This document shows, piece by piece, positions 36,261 to 45,712 of a stretch of 64,000 nucleotides of DNA; the stretch's first letter is position 1; the number at the start of each line of letters is the position of its first letter. The notes beneath the pieces were generated by a model. The model saw only the letters and a list, made by a program, of their open reading frames with translations, was not told the origin of the DNA and did no database searches. The position numbers were made by a program, and so were the translations under genes. Where the stretch lies: NCBI GenBank assembly GCA_020853095.1, contig JADYZN010000033.1, forward strand, positions 62,001 through 126,000, given 5' to 3'. Origin of the DNA: Phycisphaerales bacterium (GTDB taxonomy: Bacteria > Planctomycetota > Phycisphaerae > Tepidisphaerales > Tepidisphaeraceae).

Positions 36261-36994
36261 CCGAACCGGCCGGGGCCGACCATGCTTTGTTGTCGGTGGA
36301 TCATCTTTCGGTGGCCTATGGCGCCATTCGCGCCCTGCGCGACGTCTCGTTGCACATTCAGGCCGGCCAGATCGTGGCGTTGATCGGATCCAACGGCGCG
36401 GGAAAGACGACGTTGCTGCGGACGATTTCCGGCCTGTTAAGGCCGGCCGATGGGACCATCCGATGGAACGGCGATGATCTTCATACGCTGGCCCCCCACC
36501 GGATCGTGCGAAAAGGGATTTGTCACGTGCCCGAAGGAAGGCAGATTTTCGCCAATCTGAGCGTTCGCGAAAACCTCATCCTTGGTGCTTATTCATTGCC
36601 GCACGACAAGGCTTCGGTGCAATCGGCGATGCGAAACGTGTTCGATTTGTTTCCGATCCTGGACGAACGAAAACATCAAAACGCCGGCACGCTCTCCGGC
36701 GGCGAACAGCAGATGCTCGCCATCGGGCGGGCGTTGATGGGACAACCCAAACTGCTGCTGCTGGATGAGCCGTCGCTGGGTTTGGCCCCGCTGATCGTCC
36801 GCAAGATTTTCCAAATCATCCGCGACATCAACGCGCGGGGCACGACCATTTTCCTGGTCGAACAAAACGCCCACATGGCCCTGACCATCGCCCATCGTGG
36901 GTACGTCCTGCAATCGGGCCAGGTCCAGTTGCACGGCCCGGCCGACCGGCTGCTGCAAGACCCGCAGGTCAAGGAAGCCTATCTGGGCGGATGA
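36257..36994 (+). CDS. livF: branched-chain amino-acid ABC transporter ATP-binding protein LivF
   Basis: A 245-residue ATPase. Walker A is ALIGSNGAGKTTLLRTISG, signature LSGGEQQMLAIGRAL, Walker B LLLDEPSLGLAP, and the switch region FLVEQNAHMALTIAHRGYVL is typical of LivF. It is the last gene of the operon. The 3' end overlaps the convergent uncharacterised gene by 16 nt, so no terminator can lie between them. Confidence 0.96.
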   Translation: MTEPAGADHALLSVDHLSVAYGAIRALRDVSLHIQAGQIVALIGSNGAGKTTLLRTISGLLRPADGTIRWNGDDLHTLAPHRIVRKGICHVPEGRQIFANLSVRENLILGAYSLPHDKASVQSAMRNVFDLFPILDERKHQNAGTLSGGEQQMLAIGRALMGQPKLLLLDEPSLGLAPLIVRKIFQIIRDINARGTTIFLVEQNAHMALTIAHRGYVLQSGQVQLHGPADRLLQDPQVKEAYLGG

Positions 36995-37446
36995 CGGCCG
37001 GACAGATCGTCGCGAAGGTACGATTTGAACGTCGGCAATCCGGCGGCCTCCCACGCTTGTTCGATTCGGCTTGCGATTTGCTGGTTTTGCCGCATCAATT
37101 CGCGGAAGATTTCATATTCCGCCGATTGCGGATCGGGACAGCAATGCAGGTCATGTGTGTCGGCCCGAAACAAATACCCCTCGCCAACCGGCCTGGGATC
37201 GAGAATCAGCTTCATGTGCGGGTAATGACGATTTCCCAGCCGCAGTCGAACCGTCGGCCGGCCGGGGCCGACATCGTGTTCCAGAATGGACGATTGATAA
37301 AAACAATTCTCCGGCTGCCGGCGCAATTCATCCAGCCTCCGCCGGACCGGCAATGGGAGCGGCTGGCCTTCATAGGCCACTTTCAAGTACAACTCGATCG
37401 CCCGCCAGACTTGTGCGGGCTGAGGCAAAGAAATTGAATCCGGCAT
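36979..37446 (-). CDS. conserved-looking protein of unknown function
   Basis: A 155-residue soluble protein with no recognised family. It has a helical start (AQVWRAIELYLKVAYEGQPL) and a central beta-rich region (TVRLRLGNRHYPHMKLILDP), followed by YLFRADTHDLHCCPD, an acidic-His-Cys cluster, and a helical end. The CC and nearby His could bind metal, but this is weak. I chose ATG at 37446 because GGAG lies 8 nt upstream. It overlaps livF tail-to-tail and is divergent from the response-regulator gene. Confidence 0.72.
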   Translation of the reverse strand: MPDSISLPQPAQVWRAIELYLKVAYEGQPLPLPVRRRLDELRRQPENCFYQSSILEHDVGPGRPTVRLRLGNRHYPHMKLILDPRPVGEGYLFRADTHDLHCCPDPQSAEYEIFRELMRQNQQIASRIEQAWEAAGLPTFKSYLRDDLSGRHPPR

Positions 37447-37486
37447 CGGCAGTCTCCGGCGGTTCACGAATCGGGCGACGAACCTT

Positions 37487-37994: not shown

Positions 37995-38621
37995 TTATGG
38001 GGGAGATTGCAGGGGGGGTTGCAGGTTGGCCGAGTCGATGGGCAACTCGGACGAATGCAGATCGGCCCACATGGCGGCCTCGCCATCCAGCGGGCTGCGA
38101 ATGTTGTAAGCCTGATACGCGATCATTTCACCGATGCGGATGATCAAGTCCACCAGTCGTTCGCCGGCCGTCCAATGATCCCCCACGCAGATGGTGGCCG
38201 GGTCGATATTGGGGTGGAAGATCGGGGTGAGCATCCGGCATTTGGGGGCCAGGCGAGGATAATCGGCGGTCAATTGAATTTCCACCTCGTGGCGGTTGCG
38301 GCGGATGGGCTTGCCATCCGGGCCGCGATCCAGACCCAAAACCTGATAGGCGATGCGGTAAAGATCGGGCGGATTCCCTTGGGAATGAATGATTTGGATC
38401 GGGGGAAAATTCGCAAAGGCATGTGTGATTTGCTGTGCGTCGGCCGTCAATCGGCGAAAACGCACGCCGGGCTTGTGGGCGGCGGCCGGTTGATTCACCG
38501 GCGCGGCGATGTGGGGAACGCTCAACGTCGCCCCGCACCCTTTGCAGCGGGCGGATCGGCCGGCATAGGCATCGGGAACACTGAATGATCGGCCGCAGCC
38601 CTGACAGGTAAAATCAATCAT
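37995..38621 (-). CDS. E2-like ubiquitin-conjugating enzyme with N-terminal zinc ribbon
   Basis: A 208-residue protein. Residues 6-29 hold two CxxC pairs (CQGC, CKGC), a zinc ribbon. From about residue 55 the UBC fold can be followed to RHEVEIQLTADYPRLAPK, then the E2 motif FHPNIDPATICVGDHW. This gives HPN at 136-138 and Cys145 nine residues after the His, almost the eukaryotic spacing. The Trp150 region and a C-terminal helix pair (RLVDLIIRIGEMIAYQA) also match E2 enzymes. The Asn of HPN is the oxyanion-hole residue. It should accept an activated Ubl on Cys145. It is the last gene of a minus-strand operon with Ubl, E1, JAMM and two FHA proteins. ATG at 38621 follows the FHA-RING stop by 21 nt. 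Confidence 0.88.
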   Translation of the reverse strand: MIDFTCQGCGRSFSVPDAYAGRSARCKGCGATLSVPHIAAPVNQPAAAHKPGVRFRRLTADAQQITHAFANFPPIQIIHSQGNPPDLYRIAYQVLGLDRGPDGKPIRRNRHEVEIQLTADYPRLAPKCRMLTPIFHPNIDPATICVGDHWTAGERLVDLIIRIGEMIAYQAYNIRSPLDGEAAMWADLHSSELPIDSANLQPPLQSPP

Positions 38622-38642
38622 AAGCAATGATTACAACACTAT

Positions 38643-39575
38643 TTATCGCATCGACCACAACGATCGACGCAGCCAGAAGGAATACGAAAAGACCAGCCCA
38701 GCGGCCAGTCCAACCAGAGAAATCAGCAATGCGCCGGCCGCCAGCTTGCGATGTTGGCGCGTGCGGACGAGATAAATCCCGTCGATCAAACCCGTCACCA
38801 GTGCGGTCAGGCCAAAGGTGAACATGCCCAGCACCGCGGCGAACAAACTCGATGCCAGCAACAACAAAGGCCAGTGATGCGAATCGACCGGGACGGGATC
38901 GTGATCCATCGTCGTCGGCGCAGTGGCTTGCGGGCCGGCCAGGATATTCACCTGGTCACAACCATAGGCCGCACATCCCTGGTTTTCGACCCAGCATTCC
39001 GCATGATAAACATGCTGGCAGGATGGACAGCAAGTCACCTGTTCGGCCGGCAAAATGACGCACTGACAGATGCCGCAGGCGGTCTGTCCGGCCGATGCGA
39101 CCATCACGGGCCTGGCCTGGGGGATGGATTGCGGTATCCGCACCGACCGGCCGCAATGCGCGCATCGGCCCTTTGATTTGGCATGGTTGGGACTGACCCA
39201 CAACGGCGCGCCGCACTCGCAATTAAAGAGCGTTCCATCAACCTCGGCCGGCCCGCCGCGATCGAGTGTCAACAATCCTTCGGGCAGTTGGTCGCTTGTG
39301 TGAAAAGTGATGCGCGACGGGCCGATTTCGACCTGATCCCCATCGGCCAGTTGAATCCGGCCGGTGGCGGGCTTGCCGTTGAGTTTCAAGCCGGTGCGGG
39401 AGGAGTTGTCGGCGACGTAATAGCGATCCTTGTCCCCATCGAACCATGCGTGGATGCGGGAGACCGCGACATCATTGATGATGATGTCGTTGGTCAGCCG
39501 CCGTCCCACCAGCAACCGGCCGTCAAACCGGCAGCCAACCTGTCCATCGGGTTGTTGGATGATGAGCGTCGGCAT
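38643..39575 (-). CDS. FHA, zinc-ribbon, RING-like and TM protein (candidate E3)
   Basis: A 310-residue protein with four parts. Residues 1-95 are an FHA domain (GRRLTNDIIINDVAVSRIHA, then NSSRTGLKLNGK), which binds phosphothreonine. Cys119, Cys121, Cys138 and Cys141 form a zinc ribbon. Residues 167-206 are a RING-like treble clef: CGIC, then CPSC, HAEC, and Cys201/Cys206. The pattern C-x2-C-x12-C-x2-C-x4-H-x2-C-x6-C-x4-C resembles the prokaryotic RING families associated with ubiquitin-like gene clusters. The C-terminus has at least two membrane helices. In an operon with E1, E2 and Ubl genes, it is the likely E3, held at the membrane. It starts 2 nt after the upstream gene. Confidence 0.82.
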   Translation of the reverse strand: MPTLIIQQPDGQVGCRFDGRLLVGRRLTNDIIINDVAVSRIHAWFDGDKDRYYVADNSSRTGLKLNGKPATGRIQLADGDQVEIGPSRITFHTSDQLPEGLLTLDRGGPAEVDGTLFNCECGAPLWVSPNHAKSKGRCAHCGRSVRIPQSIPQARPVMVASAGQTACGICQCVILPAEQVTCCPSCQHVYHAECWVENQGCAAYGCDQVNILAGPQATAPTTMDHDPVPVDSHHWPLLLLASSLFAAVLGMFTFGLTALVTGLIDGIYLVRTRQHRKLAAGALLISLVGLAAGLVFSYSFWLRRSLWSMR

Positions 39576-39577
39576 GG

Positions 39578-40852
39578 TTATCCGCCCGCGGCGGCGGCCC
39601 GTGGTTTTTCCTGGAACGTAAAGGTGGTGGCGCCGATCTGGATGCGGTCATTGTTGCGCAACCGCGCCCGCTGGATCGGCCGGCCATTGACCAGGGTCTG
39701 CCCGCCCAATGGCAAATCCTCGATTTCATATCCGCCGGGGACGATGTGGACGGCGGCGTGTCGTCGTCCCACCTGCGGGTCTTTGAACAGATAGATCGCG
39801 CATTGAAGCGATGAGCCGATGTACGTTGGATTGCGATACAGGACAAACTGTTTTCCGGCGATCAGGCCGGCGGTGACTTTCAACCATCCGGATTTGACGA
39901 CGTTTTCGATCAACCCCGTGCCAAATCCCGCGATCGCGCCGATCATCGCGACCCCCACCAGCCGCGACAAGTGGGCATTGCCGGTGTTGACGGCGATGAA
40001 TTCGTACAACACCCCCCCCACCAATCCACCGACCAGCCCGCCGACCATCCCGACGAAAAACTTTCGGGCGTTTCGCATCACCACCCCCGAACCGATGCTC
40101 AGAAACAAACCCAACACCGCCCACGATCCCGCGCGGGCCACGATCTGGCGCGCTTCGGTGGCGATGGATGGGTCTCCTTCAATGAAGCGAAACACCCGGT
40201 CCACGCAAAACGCCGCCACGATGCCGCCGGCCAATCCCAGGATCGCCCCCACCGAACCGTTGATGATCGCGGCCTGCGCGTTGCGTTGAACCAGCGCTTC
40301 GGCCATCGCCAGGCACATGGCGATCATCATGCCGGCGATGGAATAAAACAGGGCGTTGGCCACAAATTCATCCCATTCCTCTCCCGCGGCCACCTGCGTT
40401 CGCCGTTGTTCTTTCTCAACTTCCGTCAGCGAACGGTCGGCTTCGATCGCATAATAAGGATTGTTGCGTGCCACGCGGTCGATCTGCACGATCGCCGCAT
40501 CCGCCTGGGATTCGGTCAACCGGCGGGCGTTTTTTTCCTGTAAAATTTGCCGGCGGGCGTCGATCCATTCGCGCGCCTCGACACGGGCATTGGGCCGAAA
40601 GTGCAACACCTCGCCGCACACCCATCCCAGCATCCCTCCCAGCAGGCCAAACAACGTCATGTAGACCAGCGTGTTGTACCACAGGCCGGCCGATGCGCGG
40701 GCCGGTTCGGGATGGTCGACCGCCGGCAACATCTGCAATTCCTGTCCGGCGGAAGCCAGCGCCTCCTGCTGTCGCAATTTTTCATCAATGCGCGGATCGC
40801 TGATCTCATCCCACGAGATGGTCATGGGCTGGTCGTTCGGGCCTGCCATCAT
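39578..40852 (-). CDS. polytopic membrane protein with C-terminal FHA domain
   Basis: A 424-residue protein. After a soluble N-terminal region come about six hydrophobic helices rich in Gly and Ala (LVYMTLFGLLGGMLGWVCG, GSVGAILGLAGGIVAAFCV, FVGMVGGLVGGLVGGVLYEF). Between the first and second helices is a charged stretch of about 75 residues. The last 90 residues are an FHA domain (LYRNPTYIGSSLQCAIYLF, GRRHAAVHIVPGGYEIED). FHA domains read phosphothreonine, so an unseen Ser/Thr kinase may act upstream. The ATG at 40852 overlaps the JAMM stop (ATGA); ATG at 40849 is equally possible. It is the fourth gene of the ubiquitin-like operon. Confidence 0.82.
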   Translation of the reverse strand: MMAGPNDQPMTISWDEISDPRIDEKLRQQEALASAGQELQMLPAVDHPEPARASAGLWYNTLVYMTLFGLLGGMLGWVCGEVLHFRPNARVEAREWIDARRQILQEKNARRLTESQADAAIVQIDRVARNNPYYAIEADRSLTEVEKEQRRTQVAAGEEWDEFVANALFYSIAGMMIAMCLAMAEALVQRNAQAAIINGSVGAILGLAGGIVAAFCVDRVFRFIEGDPSIATEARQIVARAGSWAVLGLFLSIGSGVVMRNARKFFVGMVGGLVGGLVGGVLYEFIAVNTGNAHLSRLVGVAMIGAIAGFGTGLIENVVKSGWLKVTAGLIAGKQFVLYRNPTYIGSSLQCAIYLFKDPQVGRRHAAVHIVPGGYEIEDLPLGGQTLVNGRPIQRARLRNNDRIQIGATTFTFQEKPRAAAAGG

Positions 40853-41598
40853 CGCACCCACCGATTCATGATGGCCGCCTCCGGGATGGCCGACGGCACG
40901 GCCCCGCCTCCGCCCATCCAATACAACATCCAGATCGACCAGGCGATCGCCGCCAGCGCCAACAGCACGATCAGGATGAAGATGTACATCCCCATTTTCC
41001 CTTCCGATGGCTTTGGTTCAGGAATTGGCTGCATCCGCTCAGGTGTCTCATCCGCCGGTTTGTCGGACTGGACCAGAAATTCCCTGCGGACGGGTTTCCC
41101 TTCATCCCAGACAAACGCCCCTTCATCCTTGCCCAGCGGGTCATATACAAACGCCACCTGCCAGGAGAGATCAAAAAAACTCTGGTGAATGAACAGGTCC
41201 ATCCCCGACAGGAAAATCCCAAACCCCGGATGGGTGTGATACCATCCAACGATTTTGCGATCCGGATGCAGACGGTCCATCTCCGCTTGAATATGCGACC
41301 ACGTTTCGGCCGTGAAGGTGACGTTGGCGCTGGCGCTGGTTGCGTTTTCGCCGCGGATGCACGCCTCCACGTGCAGATAAGGCCCGGCATCATCCCTGCA
41401 TGGCAGCCCCACCAGCACGCCGCAGACTTCCGCATCAAGACGGGTATGGCCATGGTTGTGAATCTCATCAAGCACCGACTGCGCGATGACCACCTGGAAT
41501 TCGTTTCGCCTCCCTTTCAATCCCGCCAGCGTGCGATCAACCCACATCGCGGATTCCATCGCCGCGCCGCCGGATTCGGATGGAGTCTTCACGTCCAT
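40849..41598 (-). CDS. membrane-anchored JAB/JAMM metalloprotease (candidate Ubl processing enzyme)
   Basis: A 249-residue protein. The JAMM motif is intact: upstream Glu57 in AEVCGVLVG, then HTHPGFGIFLSGMD, giving His121, His123, Ser131 and Asp134 in the exact H-x-H-x7-S-x2-D spacing of zinc deubiquitinases (Rpn11, AMSH-type). A Pro/Glu-rich linker leads to one C-terminal membrane helix (MYIFILIVLLALAAIAWSIW). In ubiquitin-like systems JAB proteins trim Ubl precursors or remove Ubl from targets. It starts within the end of the E1 gene (10 nt overlap) and its stop overlaps the next gene. Confidence 0.88.
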   Translation of the reverse strand: MDVKTPSESGGAAMESAMWVDRTLAGLKGRRNEFQVVIAQSVLDEIHNHGHTRLDAEVCGVLVGLPCRDDAGPYLHVEACIRGENATSASANVTFTAETWSHIQAEMDRLHPDRKIVGWYHTHPGFGIFLSGMDLFIHQSFFDLSWQVAFVYDPLGKDEGAFVWDEGKPVRREFLVQSDKPADETPERMQPIPEPKPSEGKMGMYIFILIVLLALAAIAWSIWMLYWMGGGGAVPSAIPEAAIMNRWVR

Positions 41599-42821
41599 TC
41601 CAAATCCTCCTGACCGCCGTATAAATCCCCCAGGATGGCCGGCGCATCGCCGGACAATTCCAAACCAATCGCCCGGTCGGCCGTTCGGGCGATGAGAATG
41701 TCAAACGCCGGAACCCCGATCTGAGCTGCCGTGCAGTCCAAAAACGATTCCCGCCCGGTGATCTGATAAAACGTCCGCACCTCCCGGCGAGTATTCGGGC
41801 ATTGCGGACAGTCGGCCATGGCCGCACCGACTTTGCCCAGTGATGCGAAGACCCGTTCCTCCTGGCCGCATCGGGGACAAACCAGTTTTTCCAGCACGTC
41901 GCGGCCCAATTCCAGGTTTGCCCGGTGTCCCAGACGTTGCCGTGCGATCTCCAGCAATTCGCCCAGCGTGATCGAGTCGGCCCGCGCTTCCAACCGATCC
42001 ACCCTCTCCAACGGATCGTGGCTCAGACAATCGGGATTGCGCTGATATTCCACCTGAAAAGAATCGGCCGACAGTCCCGCGAACATCCACCCCCGGCCGG
42101 CGATCGTATCCATCTGATGAATGATCTTCAGCGCCTCCTGGCACTGCACGCCGGCGATGATCGACGCGATAGTCGGCGTGGTGGGCGTCTTGCCCTCCTG
42201 CATATCCTGCCGCGACAAAAGGTTGCACGAACGGCGGCTTTGAAGCAGCTTCCAGTCTGTCGGCGACATCGTGCATTCGTAGCAAGGCCCATCCGGTTGA
42301 AAGACGCGCGCCACCCCTTGAATCTGTTCAATCGCCCCGTCGATCCAGGGTTTGTTCAATTTGTAACAAGCCCGGTTGATCGCCAGCCGGGCCTCGCGGT
42401 TGTCCAGGCCTCCGATGACAAGGTCCGCCCAGCGAAACACCCCCAGCCCCAGGTCATGGACCACGTTGCCGTCAAAATGGTTGACACGCATGGCGGGGTA
42501 CAAGTCGCGTGCCGCCGCCGCCGCCACCTTTGCCTTGGGGTGGCCTTTGTCGGCCGCCCGGTACAGCACCGAGCGGGACAGGTTGGAATTTTCGATCCGA
42601 TCCATGTCCGCGATCAGCAGGTTGCCGATCCCCAGCAACGCCAGGTTCTTGATGATCTCATTGCCCAGCGCCCCGGCCCCGACGACCAGAATTCTGGCAC
42701 GCGAGAGTTTGGCCTGATCCCACCATGAGATCAACCTGAACCGTCCAAAACGGCCCTCCTCCTCCGGCCGAACCGTGAAGACCGGTTCATCGCCCTGGGA
42801 TTGTGTGGGGTTTGTGTCCAT
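41589..42821 (-). CDS. E1-like Ubl-activating enzyme (ThiF/MoeB superfamily) with C-terminal zinc ribbon
   Basis: A 410-residue activating enzyme. The adenylation domain has VVGAGALGNEIIKNLALLGI (residues 46-65), IADMDRIENSNLSRSVL with the ATP-contacting Arg, GGLDNREARLAINRACY and PTTPTIASIIAGVQCQEALK. A CxxC at 180/183 (PCYECTM) is followed by RRSCNLLSRQ. Cys199 lies where eukaryotic E1s have the catalytic Cys, so a thioester step is plausible. The C-terminal 130 residues hold a zinc ribbon (Cys315, 318, 338, 341) and QIGVPAFDILIARTADRAIG, perhaps an E2- or Ubl-presenting domain. ATG at 42821 is inside the end of the Ubl gene (35 nt overlap); no other good start codon lies before the ATP-binding domain. 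Confidence 0.88.
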   Translation of the reverse strand: MDTNPTQSQGDEPVFTVRPEEEGRFGRFRLISWWDQAKLSRARILVVGAGALGNEIIKNLALLGIGNLLIADMDRIENSNLSRSVLYRAADKGHPKAKVAAAAARDLYPAMRVNHFDGNVVHDLGLGVFRWADLVIGGLDNREARLAINRACYKLNKPWIDGAIEQIQGVARVFQPDGPCYECTMSPTDWKLLQSRRSCNLLSRQDMQEGKTPTTPTIASIIAGVQCQEALKIIHQMDTIAGRGWMFAGLSADSFQVEYQRNPDCLSHDPLERVDRLEARADSITLGELLEIARQRLGHRANLELGRDVLEKLVCPRCGQEERVFASLGKVGAAMADCPQCPNTRREVRTFYQITGRESFLDCTAAQIGVPAFDILIARTADRAIGLELSGDAPAILGDLYGGQEDLEWT

Positions 42822-43113
42822 GAATCCATCGTGCGAACAGCCCGGCCCCGGCGGTGATTTCCGGTTGCAATCGAAGCACATCCCCATCCTTGACGCCGAC
42901 CTGCGAAAGCGACTGGTGATCCAGCAATTGCTTTCCGGTGGCGCGATGCTGAAATTTATAACTCAACACCTGCCCGTCCGGGCCGAATTGCGGAAAGTTC
43001 ATCTTCTCCAGCAATACCGCCAGAATGCGGCCAACCGGCGCATCATCCGGCATCTGCACCGGTTGCCGCTTGTTGCCGGTGGAATCCCAAACCTGAACGG
43101 TCAACATGGCCAT
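42787..43113 (-). CDS. YukD-like ubiquitin-fold protein (Ubl)
   Basis: A 108-residue beta-grasp protein. The first strand TVQVWDSTGNKRQPVQMPDD, helix GRILAVLLEKMNFPQFG and closing HQSLSQVGVKDGDVLRLQPE match YukD/EsaB-type ubiquitin folds, as the DHQSL and GVKDGDVL blocks do in ubiquitin. The tail (residues 85-108) ends HKPHTIPGR, with a Gly at the penultimate position and no Gly-Gly. It is the first gene of a six-gene minus-strand operon with E1, JAMM, FHA, FHA-RING and E2. GGAG lies 8 nt before the ATG. No type VII secretion genes are nearby, so a role as a conjugated modifier is likelier than a secretion role. Confidence 0.82.
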   Translation of the reverse strand: MAMLTVQVWDSTGNKRQPVQMPDDAPVGRILAVLLEKMNFPQFGPDGQVLSYKFQHRATGKQLLDHQSLSQVGVKDGDVLRLQPEITAGAGLFARWIHGHKPHTIPGR

Positions 43114-43528: not shown

Positions 43529-45712
43529 ATGCAAAAGAACAAGCCATCATTGACGTTGTATGAGCCAAGGGCATTGGCCATCCCCCCCGCACCCGAACCG
43601 GTGTCGCATGATGCCATGGTGCAAATCATCTGGCGACAACGCCGGGTGGTACTGATCGTGCTGGCGGCCAGCCTGTTGATCGGCATCATTTATCTTGTGA
43701 CGGCCAAACGGCTGTACACCGGGGAATCCCGGCTTTACGTCGAGCAGTCCGGGCCAAAGCTGATCAAGGAGGGCGAAACCCGCCTTTCTGAAAATTATCT
43801 CAACACCCAGTGCGAGCTGATCAATTCGACGCCGATCCTGGCGTTGGCCCTCTCTTCGCCGCAAGTCAAGGCGATTGCTTCGCTGGAAAAGATCAACACG
43901 GTCTGGTTGAAAAAAGAACTGCTGGTCGAGCCGGGCAAGCACGATGACATCATCACCGTGTCGCTTGAATTGCCCGATGCGGCCGGCGCATCGACGCTGG
44001 TCAACGCCATCGTCAATTCGTACGTCACGTATCAGACCAACCACCGGCGCGACACGGCCAACGAGGCCCTTGCGATCCTGTCGGCCGAAAAACAGAAACG
44101 CGACGAGGAACTGCAATCCAAGGTCCACCAGTTGATCGAACTCAAGGAGTCGGCCGGCACGCTCTCTTTTGACAACGACCGGGGCAACCCGATTTTGCAG
44201 CGGCTGACCAGCTTGTCCGATGCCCTGACGGCCGCCCGCATGGAGACAGTCAACGCCCGCTCGGACTATGAGGAAGCCCGCCGAATCCTGGGCAACGATC
44301 CGGAAAAGCTCAAGCAGGTGGAACACCAGCAGAATCTGAGCGGCGTGGCGGTGGCGTCGGTGGCCGAGGCCAACCTGATCCGCAGCCAGCTCTTTACGCT
44401 GCAACAGCAATTGGAAGACCTCAAGCGTCAATACATGCCGGAACATCCGCTGGTCCGCACGCAGCAGCAGCGGGTGGATCAACTGACCGTGGCGTACGTC
44501 GCGGCGGCCTATCAGCGGTGGAACACGTCGAAACTGCGTGAAGAAAGCCTGCAACAGGCATTTGACGCCCAGCAGAAGCTCGCGTTGGAACAATCCGCCA
44601 AGGCCGCACAATACGCCCGGCTGGACGCGGAAATCAAACGTCTGCAAACGGTCTCCGACGGCCTGGAGACGCGCATGCGGGAACTGAGCCTGCAAGGCGC
44701 TTCGGTGCTCGACATCAACGTCCTGGAGACCGCGCATCCCGACCCGCGTGCCACCAGCCCGCGACTGGCGCAGGTGCTGGTGTTGGCGCTGGTGGCCGGC
44801 CTGGTGCTGGGAATCATCAGCGCGTTCATCCGCGACTGGATGGACCAACGCATGCGGTCGCTGGATGAAGTCAAGGCGACGCTGGGCATGCCGGTGCTGG
44901 GAACCGTGCCTCAGATGCCGGCGATTTTGTCGCCCCAGATGCGCGGCACGCGCGTCCAACTGGAACCGACATCGGATGTGGCCGAGGCGTATCGCAACAT
45001 CCGCACGGCCGTCTATTTCGGCCTGACCGAAGGACGGGCCAAGACGGTGTTGATCACCTCTCCTTCGGCCGGCGATGGCAAATCGACGCTGGCCAGCAAC
45101 CTCGCCATCGCGATGGCGCAGGCGGGCCAGCGCGTATTGCTGATCGACGCCGATTTTCGCGGGCCGACGCAGCACCGGATGTTCGGCGTGGACGATGCCG
45201 TGGGCCTCTCCAGCGTTCTGACCGCCGGTTTCAGCATTGAAAAGGCCACGCAACAGACCGCCATCAGCGGGCTTGATCTGCTGCCGTGCGGCCCGATCCC
45301 GCGCAATCCTTCGGAAATACTGAACAGTCAGGCGTTCAGCGACATCCTGGGCGATCTGGCCGCCAAATACGACCAGATCATTCTGGACAGCCCGCCGGTC
45401 CTGGCGGTGACGGATGCCCGCATCGCCAGTGCAGCATGCGAAGTGACATTGCTGGTGCTCAACGCCGAACGGTCCAGCCGCAAAATGGCCGAGCTGGCCC
45501 GCGACAGTCTCCTGGCGGTGGGCGCCAACATCCTGGGCGTCGTCGTCAACGACGTTCCCCAGCGCGGCGCGGGAGAAGGTTTTCACGGAAAATATGGTTA
45601 TTACGGGCAGACCGCCGCCAGGGAATCCGAACGGACATCCGGCGCGGTTCGTCAGATTCAGAAAAGTTTGAGTGGTATGAAACTGGTGAGCCAGACCGGC
45701 GGGCGCACCTGA
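43529..45712 (+). CDS. exopolysaccharide co-polymerase/tyrosine kinase, Wzc family
   Basis: A 727-residue inner-membrane protein. After a short cytoplasmic N-terminus comes a first membrane helix (VVLIVLAASLLIGIIYLV), a long periplasmic coiled-coil region (residues about 60-400) and a second helix (LAQVLVLALVAGLVLGIISA). The C-terminal BY-kinase domain has Walker A SPSAGDGKSTLASNLAI, Walker A' LLIDADFRGPTQ and Walker B ILDSPPVLAVTDARI. The C-terminus has only a small Tyr cluster (KYGYYG). Wzc proteins control chain length and export of capsule or EPS. GGGAG before ATG 43529 is a good ribosome binding site. It begins the EPS gene cluster. Confidence 0.93.
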   Translation: MQKNKPSLTLYEPRALAIPPAPEPVSHDAMVQIIWRQRRVVLIVLAASLLIGIIYLVTAKRLYTGESRLYVEQSGPKLIKEGETRLSENYLNTQCELINSTPILALALSSPQVKAIASLEKINTVWLKKELLVEPGKHDDIITVSLELPDAAGASTLVNAIVNSYVTYQTNHRRDTANEALAILSAEKQKRDEELQSKVHQLIELKESAGTLSFDNDRGNPILQRLTSLSDALTAARMETVNARSDYEEARRILGNDPEKLKQVEHQQNLSGVAVASVAEANLIRSQLFTLQQQLEDLKRQYMPEHPLVRTQQQRVDQLTVAYVAAAYQRWNTSKLREESLQQAFDAQQKLALEQSAKAAQYARLDAEIKRLQTVSDGLETRMRELSLQGASVLDINVLETAHPDPRATSPRLAQVLVLALVAGLVLGIISAFIRDWMDQRMRSLDEVKATLGMPVLGTVPQMPAILSPQMRGTRVQLEPTSDVAEAYRNIRTAVYFGLTEGRAKTVLITSPSAGDGKSTLASNLAIAMAQAGQRVLLIDADFRGPTQHRMFGVDDAVGLSSVLTAGFSIEKATQQTAISGLDLLPCGPIPRNPSEILNSQAFSDILGDLAAKYDQIILDSPPVLAVTDARIASAACEVTLLVLNAERSSRKMAELARDSLLAVGANILGVVVNDVPQRGAGEGFHGKYGYYGQTAARESERTSGAVRQIQKSLSGMKLVSQTGGRT

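Follow-up and report, generated by a model that had tools for sequence, protein, structure and literature searches.

The minus strand of the 64,000-nucleotide window analysed here (contig JADYZN010000033.1, positions 62,001 to 126,000, from a Phycisphaerales bacterium) carries, at 37995-43113, a single tight operon of six genes that most likely encodes a membrane-tethered ligase and de-ligase which attaches a ubiquitin-like protein (Ubl) to envelope proteins and removes it. The parts of this reading are not equally firm. That the operon encodes a Ubl conjugation system is highly probable and that the system is tethered to the membrane is quite probable, with the tethered conjugation system taken as a whole a shade less so, while control of the envelope is put forward tentatively as its role. 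An operon of Ubl, E1, E2, RING and JAMM genes had been predicted at this place and is indeed there: all six open reading frames are present in the window, in the order Ubl-E1-JAB-TM/FHA-RING-E2 (TM, transmembrane), and Pfam families could be assigned to them as follows.

42787..43113, minus strand: YukD-type ubiquitin-like modifier, 108 aa (Pfam YukD, 3.8e-10)
41589..42821, minus strand: E1-like activating enzyme, 410 aa from ATG (Pfam ThiF, 6.4e-54)
40849..41598, minus strand: JAMM (Rpn11-like) metallopeptidase, 249 aa (Pfam JAB, 2.2e-13)
39578..40852, minus strand: TM-FHA membrane protein, 424 aa (Pfam FHA, 1e-11)
38643..39575, minus strand: FHA-RING-TM protein, candidate E3, 310 aa (FHA, 7.5e-13; Prok-RING_1, 2.3e-3, under the cut-off)
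37995..38621, minus strand: E2 (UBC) conjugating enzyme, 208 aa from ATG, or 210 aa if started at TTG 38627 (Pfam UQ_con, 2.8e-10)

The original prediction gave overlaps or gaps of 2-21 nt between these genes, but the Ubl and E1 genes in fact overlap by 35 nt. The E1 and JAB genes overlap by 10 nt, those for JAB and the TM-FHA protein by the 4 nt of ATGA, and gaps of 2 nt and 21 nt separate the last three. Using the E2, a scan of GTDB contigs recovered 161 relatives, and the best 79 of the 161 loci, which come from Planctomycetota, Acidobacteriota, Verrucomicrobiota, Riflebacteria, Sumerlaeota, Bacteroidales, one proteobacterial bin and others, were analysed. With profiles built in this analysis, all six genes were found in 56 non-redundant loci and in identical order in 55 of them, which is clearly at odds with the possibility, raised with the original prediction, that the six might never occur together in relatives. 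Because six different families belonging to one pathway adjoin, and because their order is retained in 55/56 full loci, the operon is not a chance assembly. The UQ_con family was found in 19 of the 26 searched genomes of the bacterium's own family (its own genome counted), in 20/101 genomes of relatives and in 35/392 genomes of the phylum.

The E1 has a GAGALG motif, a candidate catalytic cysteine (Cys199), which is invariant in 39/39 orthologues, a MoeB-type zinc site (CYEC.../CLSH), and a C-terminal UFD-like domain with a conserved CxxC/CxxC pair. Structure prediction, which had been proposed as a check, gave an AF2 model (pLDDT 90.3, pTM 0.89) that is consistent with the E1 fold. The core of the model is closest to MoeB and ThiF (Z 30.5 and 2.1 A over 230 residues for MoeB), and residues 20-390 of the whole model align onto E1s that bear a UFD, with several of the alignments to SAE2, UBA3, UBA7 and UBA1 reaching residues 388-391, i.e. 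the UFD of those proteins. The JAMM protein, for which Rpn11 is the nearest solved structure (4.5e-13), includes the residues E57, H121, H123, S131 and D134, and the motif was found in 40/40 orthologues. In the E2, whose relatives in the PDB are UBE2N and UBE2C, a zinc ribbon at the N-terminus is followed by HPN136 and a candidate catalytic cysteine, Cys145. The positions predicted for the E1 Cys199, the E2 HPN and Cys145 and the JAMM H121 are thus all correct. A search of the bacterium's own genome with Prok-E2_B (PF14461) produced no match, though the control was equally silent, and UQ_con is the right family for this E2.

The HPN motif is found in 59/59 E2 sequences and the cysteine in 52/59. 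The cysteine is present in all 52 E2s encoded in operons and in 0/7 orphan or extra copies, namely three large fusion proteins, three stand-alone proteins and one second copy within an operon (L045, L046, L047, L101, L106, L109 and the second copy in L088). The three genomes with a stand-alone cysteine-less E2 have no operon-type E1 (best score 105-122 bits versus 539-620 bits). Hence, loss of the cysteine coincides with an incomplete pathway and its retention with a complete one, the pattern that an active E2 predicts. The cysteine-less E2-fold proteins of L045, L046, L047, L101, L106 and L109 are UEV-like, and three of them lie within open frames of 848-984 aa.

The YukD Pfam family matches 30/30 Ubl orthologues. 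The conserved part of the Ubl has PEITAG, or a sequence close to it, as its last residues, and the final Ala-Gly is present in 71/73 unique sequences. Of the orthologues, 26, among them the copy in the sister genome (L037), which ends ITAG-stop, terminate directly after the Ala-Gly, and the remainder have tails of 1-51 aa, mostly <10 aa, that share no common sequence. In the window, the Ubl frame continues beyond the conserved AG into the region of the E1 start (42787-42846, minus strand), adding a 19 aa tail (AGLFARWIHGHKPHTIPGR) past the putative mature end, Gly89. Since the AG is kept, 26 orthologues stop there and the tails are not conserved, Gly89 would be the reactive end after trimming, and the unconserved tails would imply a maturation step. 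In Caldiarchaeum subterraneum, trimming of the 9 aa tail of pro-ubiquitin by a JAMM protein has been proven (PMC5654768), and the JAMM of the window may act on its Ubl in the same way.

Three members of the six-gene set, the JAMM, TM-FHA and FHA-RING proteins, appear to be membrane anchored, which supports the membrane association predicted for the system. By hydropathy, the JAMM protein has one C-terminal TM segment (206-224), the TM-FHA protein about six, followed by a C-terminal FHA domain, and the FHA-RING protein two at its end; a third stretch flagged in the latter, at 157-175 in the zinc-finger region, was disregarded. A TM segment is found in the JAB protein of 60/65 operons that include the gene for the membrane FHA, versus 5/18 of those that do not (Fisher 1e-7, confounded by descent). 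The two FHA domains differ. In the TM-FHA protein, the position of the phosphothreonine-contacting Arg is a Ser in 60/69 orthologues and the Ser position is variable; as the Arg of GR and the Ser of SxxH are absent, this domain is probably not a phosphothreonine reader of the usual kind. The FHA domain fused to the RING has retained these residues (R in 18/19, S in 19/19 and H in 19/19) and is canonical. To judge from these residues, the proposed link to phosphothreonine could therefore apply at most to the RING protein of the Phycisphaerae-type lineage, and probably does not extend to the universal membrane FHA. The wider prediction of a complete modification system agrees with the presence of all core components, the widely conserved order and the fit of the E1 model, with only its phosphothreonine part left half supported. 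The genome contains six Ser/Thr kinase matches, together with one HslV-size proteasome-fold protein and one YukD.

The candidate E3 (38643..39575) consists of the FHA domain, a zinc ribbon, a C4HC3 RING-like treble clef (Cys167 to Cys206) and the two TM segments. The eight zinc ligands are invariant and in C4HC3 order, and Prok-RING_1 matches 46/46 of the family members tested, which places the protein in that family. Its role as an E3 is suggested by family and context. The FHA-RING fusion is confined to Planctomycetota, in nearly all cases to Phycisphaerae-type loci, and is clustered on the E1 tree.

Of the 56 operons, 29 have a gene for a trypsin-like membrane protease (Trypsin_2), either among the operon genes or immediately upstream of the Ubl. 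The protease has a GNSGG motif and a catalytic triad (His in 43/44, Asp in 44/45 and Ser in 44/46), and fusions of the RING-TM-trypsin type were found in 17 loci overall. Examples of the gene, which is often fused at its N-terminal side to the RING, are at 3782-4915 in L147, 7863-9242 in L104 and 9907-11220 in L079, and there are about 40 further loci. Such fusions suggest that ligation is cytoplasmic and that proteolysis takes place across the membrane, if the predicted topology is correct. The protease gene is present in 0/15 operons with the FHA-RING fusion versus 29/41 others (Fisher 1e-6). A functional replacement of one by the other was considered but dropped, because both labels are strongly clustered on the E1 tree and descent is a confounder.

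On the other side of the Ubl gene of the window, the first gene of an exopolysaccharide-type stretch is divergent to the operon:

43529..45712, plus strand: Wzz chain-length determinant/BY-type kinase (AAA_31), 727 aa (Pfam)

This gene is the divergent neighbour in 9/10 loci of the family in which the upstream side is present, and the arrangement is kept between genera. A scan of the divergent region between the operon and the Wzz gene found no sigma-70 promoter or terminator. As relatives carry the membrane trypsin-like protease and the neighbour in this family is the Wzz/BY-kinase gene, control of envelope proteins appears the likely purpose of the system.

In the scheme that we favour, the JAMM protein would trim the Ubl tail after Gly89, and the E1 would adenylate Gly89 and then take the Ubl onto Cys199, from where its UFD-like domain would pass it on to the E2, at Cys145. 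The E3 would be the FHA-RING-TM protein, bringing the charged E2 close to substrates in the membrane or envelope, as eukaryotic membrane RING E3s do, in which a RING combined with TM segments places the charged E2 at the membrane. In the Phycisphaerae lineage, substrates may be recognised through phosphothreonine by the intact FHA domain of the RING protein. The tail-anchored JAMM could also take the tag off substrates, and the six-TM protein would be a membrane scaffold whose degenerate FHA domain may bind proteins other than as a phosphothreonine reader.

Several observations weigh against this scheme. The putative mature end of the Ubl is AG, unlike the GG of ubiquitin, and is not an end of the archaeal or Asgard type. 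The RING of the window scores 23.7 bits, below the Pfam cut-off of 29.1, and the PHD profile also matches 29/46 members of the RING family. Among the matches listed, Foldseek aligned the model of the FHA-RING protein with FHA domains only (2.5e-8), so the RING fold rests on the ligand pattern and the profiles. The operon of the window has no protease gene and the link to envelope proteolysis comes from its relatives, and only one family has the link to Wzz, for which common ancestry may be part of the explanation. Moreover, all catalytic steps of the scheme are deduced from sequence, as are the site of cleavage, the function of the RING protein as an E3 and the substrates. A bolder version, in which a phosphorylation-gated, membrane-spanning bacterial ubiquitin system wires RING ligation to trans-membrane proteolysis (in the relatives) or to phosphothreonine reading (here) and controls envelope or exopolysaccharide enzymes, is speculative and rather doubtful; if true, bacteria would have a counterpart to the ubiquitin quality control that is associated with membranes.

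The doubts about the zinc finger bear on one alternative directly, namely that the system conjugates the Ubl but that the finger is a PHD-like adaptor and there is no E3, the E2 modifying its targets directly or on the six-TM scaffold. Though the C4HC3 pattern, the matches to the PHD profile and the weak RING scores would suit such an adaptor, Prok-RING_1, a prokaryotic RING family that has been described, matches all 46 proteins, and no full operon lacks the gene, so we consider this unlikely. Somewhat less likely again is a role in defence against phage, in which the operon, like Bil or CBASS Cap2/Cap3, would tag proteins of the phage or alarm proteins. Related E1-E2-JAB sets protect against phage (PMC10097602, PMC11354881), the presence of the operon is patchy (35/392 genomes of the phylum), and PADLOC gave weak matches for the E1 and JAB proteins. 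However, no PADLOC match for the E2 was better than 0.02 and there was none for the Ubl, the E2 has HPN and not the CEHH of Bil, RING and membrane parts are present, and the operon lies next to genes for branched-chain transport and exopolysaccharide, not in a defence island.

The remaining two explanations would do without conjugation and both are very improbable. As the Ubl matches YukD, it could be an unconjugated structural component of a machine resembling type VII secretion, like YukD and EsaB in Firmicutes, with which it shares its Pfam family; Bacillus YukD was reported not to be conjugated (PMC1779556), and the FHA domains and membrane proteins would fit, since the type VII machine also uses FHA. 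Against this, no WXG100 protein was found in the 96%-complete genome (the search control was positive in B. subtilis) and the Ubl of the window is the only YukD of the genome, both of which argue against a role in type VII secretion, and the C-terminal AG is essentially invariant and the Ubl has constant E1, E2 and JAMM partners, with a RING beside them here. The least probable of all is a sulphur-carrier or biosynthetic pathway with the Ubl as a MoaD/ThiS-like carrier and the E1 as a MoeB-like enzyme. The E1 core is indeed nearest to MoeB and ThiF in fold and a JAMM protein is able to mature such carriers, but an E2 with a catalytic Cys and a RING are always present in this class, the E1 has a UFD-like domain, and in the genomes checked, other ThiF-superfamily proteins, of the MoeB/ThiF type and with shorter matches, are encoded separately.

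A membrane-tethered Ubl conjugation system is hence preferred, and operons of this kind are known, having been predicted since 2011. According to a review (PMC4197634), related Ubl operons were reported from Actinobacteria, Planctomycetes and Acidobacteria by Burroughs et al. 2011, and, as far as they are portrayed there, the operons of Burroughs, Iyer and Aravind share their component set and RING family (Prok-RING_1) with that of the window, which likewise has a YukD-like Ubl beside E1, E2 and JAB and an E2 with the catalytic Cys and HPN. Other Ubl systems with prokaryotic RINGs were described in eLife in 2020 (PMC7159879). The operon of Caldiarchaeum subterraneum and Asgard archaea (PMC5654768) also includes a Ubl, E1, E2, small RING and Rpn11-type JAMM, and its pro-Ubl is likewise short-tailed; it differs in having a di-Gly ubiquitin, an Rpn11 gene that is adjacent on the opposite strand and no TM-FHA protein, the YukD-type Ubl ending in AG, the TM anchors and the FHA domains being features of the window operon. 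Bil (BilABCD) and CBASS Cap2/Cap3 are also bacterial sets of Ubl, E1, E2 and JAB proteins, with a role in defence, but Bil has a tandem Ubl, a CEHH-type E2 and four genes without a RING (PMC11354881), whereas the window operon has a single Ubl, HPN and a RING.

The suggestion that the two-FHA membrane arrangement is undescribed thus fails for the kind of operon but may stand for the FHA-RING protein; in a literature search that excludes the text of the 2011 paper, no description was found of this protein, of the membrane FHA without its phosphothreonine residues, of a Ubl ending in AG or of the fusions with trypsin. Provisionally, three features are regarded as new: the universal membrane FHA that lacks the phosphothreonine residues while the RING-fused FHA of Phycisphaerae is canonical, the membrane trypsin-like protease in related operons, often fused to the RING, and the divergent position beside the Wzz/BY-kinase gene in the family of the window. 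We know of no biochemical test of the RING-containing class of Ubl operons. With E1, E2, RING, JAMM and Ubl all encoded in what appears to be a single transcription unit, whose order is the same in several phyla and which is present in some complete genomes, the operon would offer bacteria as a tractable comparison on the origin and first role of ubiquitin systems. Planctomycetes bacterium syqfu, Acidobacteriaceae ZG23-2 and Spartobacteria LR76 are cultured carriers, and the defined Ubl end, the natural cysteine-less E2 controls and the protease fusions are handles for testing ubiquitin-type tagging of membrane proteins.

Apart from the closest relative, no locus shares the genes that follow the E2, and a 162 aa frame at 36979-37467 (minus strand) was rejected as a member of the system since Pfam gave no match for it and the loci compared contain no homologue. 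On the E1 tree, a second, compact class of Planctomycetota loci, ordered E1-Ubl-E2-JAB, stands apart; FHA and RING are absent from most of it, and L080-L084, L086, L087, L090, L091 and L093-L095 have no RING, no membrane parts and a JAB that lacks a TM segment. In L111/L157, which represent one operon, a run of zinc-ribbon or RING-like genes between FHA and E2 is a local expansion. A gene for a GYF_2-domain protein is found inside acidobacterial operons (8921-9580 in L147, and 14+ mostly acidobacterial loci), and one for a DUF2752 protein is at or just downstream of the E2 gene in a planctomycete/Riflebacteria group (8671-9267 in L079, and others).

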